From assembly GCA_005882895.1 (NCBI GenBank), contig VBBD01000023.1:1-40394 (forward strand): a stretch of 40,394 bases of DNA, read 5' to 3'. Each line of letters opens with the position of its first letter. The first letter of the stretch is position 1. Positions 18,738 to 40,113 of the stretch are shown here, in pieces. Made by a program: the position numbers and the translations under genes. Below the pieces are notes generated by a model. The model was not told the origin of the DNA, made no database searches, and saw nothing but the letters and a program-made list of their open reading frames with translations. The DNA comes from Candidatus Bathyarchaeota archaeon (GTDB lineage: Archaea; Thermoproteota; Bathyarchaeia; 40CM-2-53-6).

Positions 18738-21700
18738 TTGGCCCAAAAACTCGCTGAGCGAAGACGTGTGAAGAAGAGGCATGTGGGTGCCCGTGAGGGG
18801 AAACTGGTTTCTCGGCCCGCGGAGTCAGCGACACGAAAGAACGCGGAGGTCCTTGTCCGTGATCGAACTCGTGACGATTCGTTCTCAATAGTGGGGGTCG
18901 GTGCTTCTGCGGGGGGACTCGAAGCCTTCACGCAGCTGCTGCAAGAGCTACCTTCAGGCATTAACATGGCACTGGTACTGGTACAGCACCTTGACCCAAC
19001 CTACAAGAGCTTGTTGACCGAGCTTCTCTCCAGGACAACCAAGCTGGCGGTGGAAGAGGTTACTGACAGGACCCGGGTGAAGCCTGGACATGTCTACGTG
19101 ATTCCGCCGAACACGACTATGATGATTTCCAAGCGTGTTCTACACCTCACCCCTCGTGTCGAGGTTGGTAGGCATACTCCCATCGACCAATTTCTGGAGT
19201 CCCTCGCTCAGGACCAGAAGGGCAGAGCGATCGGTGTCATACTCTCCGGAACCTCCATGGATGGTATTCGTGGGCTGAGGGCCATCAAGGATGAAGGGGG
19301 AATCACAATTGCCCAAGACGAGAAGTCGGCCAAGTACTACGACCTTCCCCGGAGTGCAGTCGCGGCAGGTTGCGTCGACCTAATCCTTCGGCCACAAGAC
19401 ATCGCGCAAGAGCTTGTCAAGCTGAGCCAGCATCCCTACGTGCCTTACCTGGAAACTGAAACGGCGGAGAAGCTCTTACCGCAGAGCGACCTCGACAAGA
19501 TCTTCGGTCTACTTCGAAAAGCGACCGGGGTTGATTTTGCAGATTACAAACATGCAACCATAAAGCGACGGATTCTGAGACGAATGCTTATCCTCAAGAC
19601 GAACAAGATGGAGGATTACCTGAACAACCTAAAGACAAACCCGGGCGAATTGAGTTCCTTGTTCCAGGACATTCTAATCAATGTGACCGGATTCTTCCGC
19701 GAGCCTCAAACCTTCGACGCGTTGAAGCAGGAAGTATTTCCCAGCATTATGAAGAAAAGGTCCGCTGACGACCCCATCAGGATATGGATTCCAGGCTGCT
19801 CGACCGGAGAAGAAGTCTACTCGCTAGCCATCTGCCTCGTGGAGTACCTGGACCATTCCCCGGTTCACCCGTCGATCCAGATCTTTGCAACCGACGTGAA
19901 TGAGACAGTGTTGGAGAAGGCTCGGCAGGGCGAGTACGCTGCATCCGCTTCGATATCGGCCGAACGTCTACGACGCTTTTTCGTCAGGGTGAATGGTTCC
20001 TACCAGGTAAACAAGTCGATTCGCCGGATGTGCGTCTTCGCCAAGCAGGACGTTACAGCGGACCCGCCGTTTTCGAAGCTTGACCTGATCATATGCCGGA
20101 ACCTGCTGATCTATCTTGGGCCAGCTTTGCAAAGGAAGCTACTCCCAATATTCCACTATTCGCTCAAGTCTGCGGGGTTCCTTGTCTTAGGAGACTTTGA
20201 AACTGTGGGTGAGTTCGACAACATCTTCAAGGTGGCTAACAAGCACTTCAAGATCTATTCCAAAAGACCCGTGGTCACCCGTAAGCCCCTTGATTTTTCG
20301 ACAACGTACATTGCTAAACCAGGACGGGTTGGCAAGCCGGCAGACAATCGACTGGCTGAGAGCCAAGTCCCAGAACCGGAAATTTTCAAGGAGGCGGACC
20401 GGATCTTGCTGACAAAGTACACGCCGGCCAGCGTCATCGTGAACAGTGAGCTGGAGATTATCCAGTTTCGGGGACGCACAGGTTCTTTCCTCGAGCCGGC
20501 ACCTGGGAAGGCCAGTCTCAACGTTTTGAAGATGGCCCGCGAGGGCATGATGACGGACCTCAGAAATGTGCTAGACAGAGCGAAGAAGAGCGGCGAGATA
20601 GTTAGGAAGGAAGCGATCGCGATCAGGTCCGATGGGAAATACTTGGATGTGAACCTAGAGGTGGTGCCGCTGAAGACCAATCGAGCTCATCCCTGTTTTC
20701 TCGTGGCGTTCGAGGAAGCTTTGCCGAAGCCTGCTCCTTCAGTGACGTTGGGAAGGGCTGGAGGCGAGAAGAGTAGGAAGGAGAGGAGAGCGGAAGATCT
20801 CAAGCTTGTCCGGCTCCAGCAGGAGCTCTCTGCGACTAAGGATTATCTCCAATCGATCATCGAGGACAAGGAGGCGGCCAACGAGGAGTTGAAGGCTGCC
20901 AATGAGGAGATACAGTCTAGCAATGAGGAGTTGCAGAGTACTAACGAGGAGCTTGAAACGGCCAAGGAGGAGCTTCAGTCAACGAATGAAGAGCTGACTA
21001 CTGTTAACGAGGAGCTTCAGAACAGGAACCTTGAGCTGACGCAGGTCAACAATGATATCACGAACCTCAACGCTAGTGCGAACGTGCCGGTCCTCATGAT
21101 GGGAAGTGATCTGCGATTGCGTCGTTGGGGCCCGCTTGCCGATAAACTGTTCAATTTGAAAGCCAGCGATCTCGGCAGACCCATCTTTGACATCAACCTT
21201 GGTTTCCAGATACCGGATCTCAAAGAGACAATAAACGATGTAGTCGACAACGTCATCATCAAGGAGATAGAGGCCAAGGGTCCGCAGGGGCGCTGGTTTC
21301 TGGTCCGGATAGGACCATACCGGACAGCGGATAACAAGATCGAGGGAGCCGTCTTGGCCTTTGTCGATATCGACCGTTTGAAACAGGGTGAGGCGAAGCT
21401 TAGAGCACGTTCTGAACACTTGGAGGACTTGGTTGAGGAGAGATCTAGGATGCTAAGTAACACGACCCGGTTGGCGGCTATTGGAGAGACGGCGGGGATG
21501 GTGGGCCATGATCTCCGAAACCCCCTGCAGACTATAATCAACACGATCCATCTGGCGAAGGAGGCTATGAAAGCGAATTCAGCGTCGACACCGGAGAAGG
21601 ACCCTCGTGTTGGGAGTGCGTTGGAGACGATCCGGGAGCAGGCTGATTTCATGAACAAAATCGTGTCCGACCTGCAAGACTATGCGAAACAGGCGAAGCC

Positions 21701-22145
21701 GACATTTGTTGAGTATGACATGCAGAGGCTGATCAATGATTCTCTCTCCTCAATCCCGGTACCCAGGTCCGTGGATGTCTCATCTAGCGTTGAGACGGGC
21801 TTTCCGAAACTGAGCGTCGACCCAGGCTTACTTCGCCGCGCCTTTACCAACATTATCACCAATGCTCTGCAAGCGATGCCTGATGGTGGGAAGCTGAAGA
21901 TTAGAGCGTGGACGAGTCAGAACATTGCCGCGGTCAGCTTCGAGGACACTGGGATCGGTATTCCGGAGGATGTCAAGACCAAGATGTTCAGCCCGCTCTT
22001 CACGACGAGGGAGAAGGGAGTGGGACTCGGGTTGGCCGTGACCAAGCGTCTGATTGAATCGCACAAGGGCGAGATCAAGGTCTTCTCCAAAGTAGGCGAG
22101 GGGACGACTTTGACGGTTGAGTTGCCGCTTGACTTGAAGAGGTGA
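18738..22145 (+). CDS. CheB-CheR-coiled coil-PAS-histidine kinase fusion
   Basis: CheB VGVGASAGGLEAF / LVQHLDP / VILSGTSMDGIRG; CheR IKRRILRRM and PGCSTGEEVYSLAI; NEEL.STNEEL coiled coil; HisKA GHDLRNPLQTI; HATPase DTGIGIPEDVKTKMFSPLFTTREKGVGLGLAV. Confidence 0.95.
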   Translation: MAQKLAERRRVKKRHVGAREGKLVSRPAESATRKNAEVLVRDRTRDDSFSIVGVGASAGGLEAFTQLLQELPSGINMALVLVQHLDPTYKSLLTELLSRTTKLAVEEVTDRTRVKPGHVYVIPPNTTMMISKRVLHLTPRVEVGRHTPIDQFLESLAQDQKGRAIGVILSGTSMDGIRGLRAIKDEGGITIAQDEKSAKYYDLPRSAVAAGCVDLILRPQDIAQELVKLSQHPYVPYLETETAEKLLPQSDLDKIFGLLRKATGVDFADYKHATIKRRILRRMLILKTNKMEDYLNNLKTNPGELSSLFQDILINVTGFFREPQTFDALKQEVFPSIMKKRSADDPIRIWIPGCSTGEEVYSLAICLVEYLDHSPVHPSIQIFATDVNETVLEKARQGEYAASASISAERLRRFFVRVNGSYQVNKSIRRMCVFAKQDVTADPPFSKLDLIICRNLLIYLGPALQRKLLPIFHYSLKSAGFLVLGDFETVGEFDNIFKVANKHFKIYSKRPVVTRKPLDFSTTYIAKPGRVGKPADNRLAESQVPEPEIFKEADRILLTKYTPASVIVNSELEIIQFRGRTGSFLEPAPGKASLNVLKMAREGMMTDLRNVLDRAKKSGEIVRKEAIAIRSDGKYLDVNLEVVPLKTNRAHPCFLVAFEEALPKPAPSVTLGRAGGEKSRKERRAEDLKLVRLQQELSATKDYLQSIIEDKEAANEELKAANEEIQSSNEELQSTNEELETAKEELQSTNEELTTVNEELQNRNLELTQVNNDITNLNASANVPVLMMGSDLRLRRWGPLADKLFNLKASDLGRPIFDINLGFQIPDLKETINDVVDNVIIKEIEAKGPQGRWFLVRIGPYRTADNKIEGAVLAFVDIDRLKQGEAKLRARSEHLEDLVEERSRMLSNTTRLAAIGETAGMVGHDLRNPLQTIINTIHLAKEAMKANSASTPEKDPRVGSALETIREQADFMNKIVSDLQDYAKQAKPTFVEYDMQRLINDSLSSIPVPRSVDVSSSVETGFPKLSVDPGLLRRAFTNIITNALQAMPDGGKLKIRAWTSQNIAAVSFEDTGIGIPEDVKTKMFSPLFTTREKGVGLGLAVTKRLIESHKGEIKVFSKVGEGTTLTVELPLDLKR

Positions 22146-27765: not shown

Positions 27766-27975
27766 AAACTCGCCCATTTCAAGCCCTGATCGCAATTCTG
27801 GGACCTCCTTAGAGACTCTCCCGAAATTCGTTCGGAATTGTCGCCAACTTTCCATTACCATCCCAGCCAAGATTGCGCCCTGAATTGCCTGACTCGCCCA
27901 TTATCAGTGCCGGACAGGAAATGGTTTCTAGAAAATAGGGGATCTTAGCGACTCGACCTCGCGAGGCAAGAGTGC
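27766..27975 (-). repeat. ~210-bp intergenic element, copy B
   Basis: Reverse strand gcactcttgcctcgcgag...cgctaagatcccc...tccggcactgataatgggcgagtc..attcagggcgc...gatcagggcttgaaatgggcgagttt aligns end-to-end with copy A at 39895..40113. Confidence 0.75.
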
Positions 27976-27999
27976 TCGGCTCGGGAATCCAGACGTTAG

Positions 28000-28130
28000 A
28001 AATCGGCTATTATCAGCCCCGATCACAATTCCAAGCCCACGATTTCCAGAACACAACTTTCCACGCTTAACCACAGGGGAAAACACGGAGATCGAAAAAG
28101 GCCAGACAAGCCCATAATACGCCCGTCTCA
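28000..28130 (-). repeat. Partial/degenerate copy C of the same element
   Basis: Reverse strand gtattatgggcttgtctggc...ggaaagttg..ttggaattgtgatcggggctgataatagccgattt. Confidence 0.5.
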
Positions 28131-28296
28131 AAGAAACAAACCGGAACAAAGCCCGGACAGAGACATCCAACAGAAAAATTTCAGGCAGATTGCTAAAAGC
28201 TCCCACGACGCCCACGACGAAAGAGTGGTTCCTGGGCGAGTATCACACACGGTTTTGAGCATAGTTTTTTATCAACAGCACTACGGCCGAGACCTC

Positions 28297-28905
28297 ATGC
28301 CCCATCACCGATACAAGCTACCCGACCTTCCTTACGCGTACAACGCGCTCGTCCCGACAATCTCTGAAGAGATAATGAAGCTCCACCACGACAAACACCA
28401 CCTTGCCTACGTGAACGGCGCCAACGCTGCCCTGGACAAGCTCCAGAAAGCCCGCGAGACCGGCTTCGCTGGCGTCGATGTCAAAGGGATCGAACGAGAC
28501 CTCGCTTTCCACGGTTCAGGCCACACCATGCACAGCACCTTCTGGCCCAACATGAAACCGAACGGCGGAGGAAAACCAGGTGGAAAAATAGCCGACCAGA
28601 TTAACACCGACTTCGGAAAGTTCGAGTCGTTCAAGGAACAGTTCAGCACCGCCGCCAAACAAGTCGAAGGCAGCGGCTGGGCCGCCCTATCCTACGAACC
28701 ATGGACACAACAATTGATCACCCTCCAAGCCGAGAAACACAACGATCTAACGGTCCAAGGAGTAGTCCCGATCCTCGTCCTTGATGTCTGGGAACACGCC
28801 TACTACTTACAATACAAGAACGACCGCGCGGCCTATGTAGACGCTTGGTGGAACGTCGTCAACTGGGACGATGTAGAGAAAAGGCTAGAAAAGGCCAGAC
28901 GTTAA
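28297..28905 (+). CDS. sodA: Fe/Mn superoxide dismutase
   Basis: KLPDLPYAYNALVPTISEEIMKLHHDKHHLAYVNGAN; LDVWEHAYYLQYKNDRAAYVDAWWNVVNWDD. Confidence 0.95.
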   Translation: MPHHRYKLPDLPYAYNALVPTISEEIMKLHHDKHHLAYVNGANAALDKLQKARETGFAGVDVKGIERDLAFHGSGHTMHSTFWPNMKPNGGGKPGGKIADQINTDFGKFESFKEQFSTAAKQVEGSGWAALSYEPWTQQLITLQAEKHNDLTVQGVVPILVLDVWEHAYYLQYKNDRAAYVDAWWNVVNWDDVEKRLEKARR

Positions 28906-39894: not shown

Positions 39895-40113
39895 GCACTC
39901 TTGCGTCGCGAGTCGCGTTCGCTAAGACCCCCCTCCTGGAGAGGTCACTTGCTGTCTGGCACGTATTATGGGCGAGTCTCGTGATTCAGGGCGCGTTCCG
40001 GGCTTGGGTCGGATAATGGATGGTGGGATTTCGTCGGGGGGATCCCGAACGTTTGGAGGGAAGTCTAGGGACCCCCTCTCATTTTCAAGATCAGGGCTGA
40101 AAATGGGCGATTT
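39895..40113 (+). repeat. ~219-bp intergenic element, copy A
   Basis: gcactcttgcgtcgcgag...cgctaagaccccc...tctggcacgtattatgggcgagtc..attcagggcgc...gatcagggctgaaaatgggcgattt aligns to the reverse strand of 27766..27975. Confidence 0.75.

Follow-up and report, generated by a model that had tools for sequence, protein, structure and literature searches.

What kind of DNA is the intergenic element of about 215 bp that lies twice, in inverted orientation and 12 kb apart, on contig VBBD01000023.1 of a Candidatus Bathyarchaeota archaeon? An earlier note on the window (i.e., the whole stretch of 40,394 nucleotides that was analysed) had described this pair at 27766-27975 and 39895-40113, and had taken it for an RNA, a regulatory or a non-autonomous mobile element and not for a protein-coding gene.

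Copies in the window and their distribution

The positions of the pair are correct and the two copies, inverted relative to each other, can be aligned from end to end. With a covariance model they span 27767-27975 and 39896-40113. Both copies are real, but their number was understated, as a third copy in the window (copy 3 in Table 1) had been missed and the family is far larger. With the main profile copy 3 gives a partial match of 34.9 bits (28127-28001), and with the G-type profile it is full length. It is conserved at the orthologous site of other species.

Table 1. Copies of the element in the window and the spacer of the tandem pair.
Feature	Position	Strand	Description
Copy 1	27769..27975	-	Full-length core of the A subfamily; follows copy 3 as second tandem unit; profile 176.8 bits, core positions 2-207
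Spacer	27976..28000	-	25 bp, separates tandem copies 3 and 1
Copy 3	28001..28227	-	G-type (divergent) subfamily; first of the two tandem units, lying 25 bp upstream of copy 1
Copy 2	39895..40113	+	D subfamily, solo; profile 160.1 bits

A superoxide dismutase reading frame (28225-28905, GTG start at 28225) slightly overlaps copy 3. Because the match to several homologs begins only at residue ~23, its start was probably called too early and may in fact be located further inside the frame. Elsewhere in the window, positions 18738-22145 of this soil archaeon encode a 1135-aa protein with CheB, CheR, PAS, and histidine-kinase domains (Pfam).

The assembly from which the window is taken is a MAG of 1.97 Mb in 92 contigs with a completeness of 86.6%. 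When copy 1 was compared with it by BLASTN, as the earlier note had proposed, 46 matches were obtained, copy 2 being found at E=4.6e-13. A sequence-only covariance model gave 87 matches in the same assembly, and an iterated profile, run over the stretches around copies, gave 56, nearly all of them full-length over the 208-column core. Matches per genome range from 13 to 87 within the genus. The genome of the window (87) and ten relatives from the same genus (51-78 each) form clade 1; seven other relatives of this genus form clade 2 and carry 13-45 copies, which are more divergent. About 60 copies were found in genus g2 (G018) and about 21 in genus g4 (G020), and none in genus g3, which is represented by one genome of 67% completeness. 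No copies were detected by the covariance model in other families of the order, and a broader second model found the element in 20 of 201 Bathyarchaeia genomes, all belonging to one family.

Exact-pattern matches in named genomes fall into soil MAGs labelled Bathyarchaeota or Crenarchaeota with the exception of one bacterial bin. In this Rhodospirillales bin (L065) a 19-mer is matched; the profile search finds no element there and chance is the likely explanation. Viral and plasmid sequences contain no copies, and a viral or plasmid origin was rejected on this ground. Rfam does not list the element, and no description of such repeats in Bathyarchaeota/Bathyarchaeia was found in a literature search that had most subscription journals outside its reach. 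The element is a large non-coding DNA repeat family, found only in one soil Bathyarchaeia family.

Anatomy of the core and tests for coding and folding

The core comprises ~208 bp of intergenic, non-coding DNA. It starts near CACTCTTGCGTCGCGAG, ends with ATCAGGGCTGATAATGGGCGATT and contains the internal blocks GTCGCTAAGACCCCC, CTGTCTGGCA, GATAATGGGCGAG, and TCAGGGC, while its variable middle defines the subfamilies. Copies stand alone or are paired in direct tandem with a member of a different subfamily; in nearly all such pairs the units are separated by spacers of 23-27 bp. No frame of the six is open in more than 15 of 142 cores, in line with the non-conserved reading frames reported earlier, and a protein-coding gene or pseudogene was rejected. 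The earlier note had named a lack of further copies and homology to a pseudogene family as findings that would speak against such an element; neither occurred.

The motif GGGC is found 3.9 times per core on the plus strand vs 0.27 times on the minus strand, mostly at distances of 11 bp. Because of this strand bias and phasing, the GGGC boxes suggest a directional array to which a putative protein could bind. In inherited orthologous pairs (see below) 7.2% of the conserved columns have changed vs 14.3% of the variable ones. This twofold slower change suggests constraint on the individual copies, and exchange between copies could contribute to it. The copies lie in mixed orientation relative to the flanking genes, which are diverse in kind. 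Gaps between convergent genes are mildly overrepresented (32% vs 19%, a small sample with crude gene calls), which together with the diverse neighbours does not fit a 3'-UTR or terminator element.

The RNA option of the earlier note is disfavoured by the folding tests. Folding z-scores of 110 distinct clade-1 copies average -0.02 and +0.02 on the two strands and match those of control DNA, and values around 0 were likewise obtained on both strands for 42 copies of the divergent type and for 24 copies from genera g2 and g4. With RNAalifold, 55 copies give -2.7 kcal/mol and the divergent type 0. Rfam has no match in the window at gathering score, nor does one appear up to E=5 around copies 1 and 3. 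The top covarying column pairs are mostly non-complementary and reflect the subfamily signal of the variable middle; the sole helix candidate, TCGCT/GGCGA, follows divergent subfamilies and was rejected. With folding no better than that of shuffles, no conserved fold and no Rfam match, a structured RNA was discarded, and the element appears to act as DNA and not as a folded RNA.

A further possibility would be small RNA genes or cis-regulatory RNAs that are conserved in sequence but have little structure. The conserved blocks and the intergenic position would suit them, and so would an observation made in G020, where a conserved AT-rich box (about AAATTTTCTTAAAAG) follows ~22-25 bp beyond the 3' end of each element (L173-L199, odd numbers). 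The bases in between are unconserved, so that the box is placed like a TATA box before a transcript start; it may be an archaeal promoter or, alternatively, an insertion target. However, this box is absent beyond clade-1 copies, and the mixed orientation relative to flanking genes as well as the folding and Rfam results speak against RNAs of this kind, which we consider distinctly unlikely.

Stable sites with exchanged cores

Flanking genes were used to trace three sites through the genus: site A, site B (copy 2 of the window) and site C (copies 1 and 3). An element or a remnant of it is present at these sites in every clade-1 species in which the site was sufficiently recovered, and at site A weak profile matches extend to three clade-2 species. 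Downstream of clade-2 elements at this site a short hairpin-like sequence, CTACTCTGAAAAGTAG, is shared by three species (L111, L113, and L114). No clean empty site was seen among the loci examined. Internal deletions occur, some of which keep both ends (L103, L106), and at site C the copy number differs between species while the terminal block is shared. In the close species pair G012/G014 site B carries the same allele, with 91% identity in the core and 91% in the gene.

The contents of the sites are far less stable. Between the window's genome and the sister species G009, 27 orthologous copies were paired by their flanks, a sample that favours well-scoring copies. Nine of these core pairs are 87-95% identical and four 78-82%, whereas the remaining 14 reach 51-71%, as randomly chosen pairs of copies do (median core identity 61%), even though their long flanks are 82-91% identical. 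Near the element this contrast is weaker yet still visible: the adjacent 60-bp flanks average 75-78% identity in replaced pairs vs 86% in inherited pairs. Because the flanks beside replaced cores are more diverged, part of the signal may come from local fast evolution or from imperfect pairing (L016/L209, L013/L225).

Copy 2 illustrates the exchange. Its 60-bp flanks are 90% and 92% identical to those of its ortholog and its core only 78%, but it is 95.8-99.5% identical to five D copies at unrelated sites of its own genome. Altogether six near-identical D copies (95-99.5%) occupy unrelated sites, and in other species the site of copy 2 holds other subfamilies. Apparent mosaics were found as well: two copies that are 81% alike have an exact tract of 59 bp in common, and in another example one half of the core is diverged and the other half identical. 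Where D copies stand in tandem, they have the spacer and the final part of the unit before them in common. The element is therefore a dispersed repeat with stable genomic positions, in which the resident sequence is often exchanged for that of other family members.

Explanations of the exchange and comparison with known repeats

The reading that we prefer, at a probability of roughly 0.55, is that these DNA elements are old and stable in position, that ectopic recombination overwrites their cores and that they possibly carry a GGGC binding array; both the mechanism and the function are deduced from sequence comparison. Core replacement would be due to ectopic homologous recombination between copies, i.e., gene conversion or unequal exchange, for which the near-invariant end blocks would serve as homology. 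A copy would spread by overwriting its relatives, tandems would grow or shrink via exchange in the 3' block, and the conserved blocks with the GGGC boxes would be bound by a putative sequence-specific protein. In view of the apparent mosaics, the sharing between tandem D copies and the differing copy numbers at site C, the most likely process by which cores are overwritten and the number of tandem units changes is ectopic recombination via the conserved end blocks. What counts against ectopic exchange is that homologous recombination at only ~60% identity is demanding.

The same exchange could be brought about by a non-autonomous element that would be moved by a putative recombinase and insert preferentially beside existing copies, after which unequal recombination deletes one unit, so that the outcome looks like replacement. 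Near-identical copies at unrelated sites, the constant tandem spacing of 23-27 bp, the copy-number differences at site C and the recent-looking family in G020 with its AT box at a fixed distance would all be accounted for in this way. However, a classical non-autonomous transposon, the mobile option of the earlier note, is unsupported. As stated there, terminal inverted repeats are absent: the first 25 positions and the reverse complement of the last 25 are 24% identical, which is the chance level. The flanks were checked for target duplications as the note had suggested, and at 80 solo copies identical flank k-mers were no more frequent than under shuffled pairing, whatever the boundary offset. 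The Y1 (RAYT-type) transposase PF01797, the only transposase family searched, is absent from all 20 element-bearing genomes, whereas the positive controls were matched. The lack of a clean empty site among the loci examined, the lack of viral or plasmid copies and the partial tracts inside cores add to this, and we regard insertion followed by deletion as rather unlikely. Dedicated cassette exchange seems less probable still; here a recombinase specific to the lineage would use the conserved end blocks as its recombination sites and repeatedly swap non-coding cassettes among ~100 fixed chromosomal addresses, thereby altering the protein-binding character of these intergenic regions.

Since only MAGs were compared and several of the near-identical copies (L008, L031, L035) are located at the ends of contigs, swapping and near-identity could also be artefacts of short-read assembly. 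This is very improbable: the swapped cores are mostly 60-75% alike, too unlike to mislead an assembler, ~10 separate assemblies have these same sites occupied, and G012 and G014 agree in their allele at site B.

With this element an uncultured soil Bathyarchaeia lineage gains a genome-wide, lineage-defining repeat, and stable addresses with exchanged contents are a pattern that ordinary transposons or regulatory RNAs do not explain. If this is confirmed, the family would offer a natural system for measuring archaeal ectopic recombination, a marker for the element-bearing Bathyarchaeia family and a pointer to a putative new DNA-binding or recombination protein.

Among known systems, the pneumococcal BOX, RUP, and SPRITE repeats (PMC3049150) and the enterobacterial RU-1 (127 bp) and RU-2 (168 bp) (PMC2759123) are likewise short, multi-copy, intergenic, lineage-restricted and without a transposase of their own. 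For BOX, RUP, and SPRITE extensive secondary structure has been reported (PMC3049150), whereas the archaeal element folds no better than chance. In addition, it has many coexisting subfamilies, and from species to species the core at a given site is exchanged, which sets it apart from these repeats. MITEs (PMC10969869) are also short, non-autonomous and multi-copy, but the archaeal element has neither terminal inverted repeats nor a target-site duplication and was not assigned to them. With REP/RAYT systems (PMC3733652) it has in common the intergenic location, the high copy number, some clustering and the mild excess between convergent genes. REPs, however, are palindromes of 20-40 bp (PMC3733652), whereas the ~208-bp core is non-palindromic, has a folding z around 0 and forms direct tandems; this and the absence of PF01797 led us to reject a REP/RAYT system. 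The concerted evolution of rRNA operons (PMC6053082, PMC8022953) is similar in that some copies are closer to paralogs than to orthologs, as under gene conversion. Unlike these genes, which are kept near-identical, the element is short intergenic DNA in which coexisting subfamilies replace one another without homogenising.
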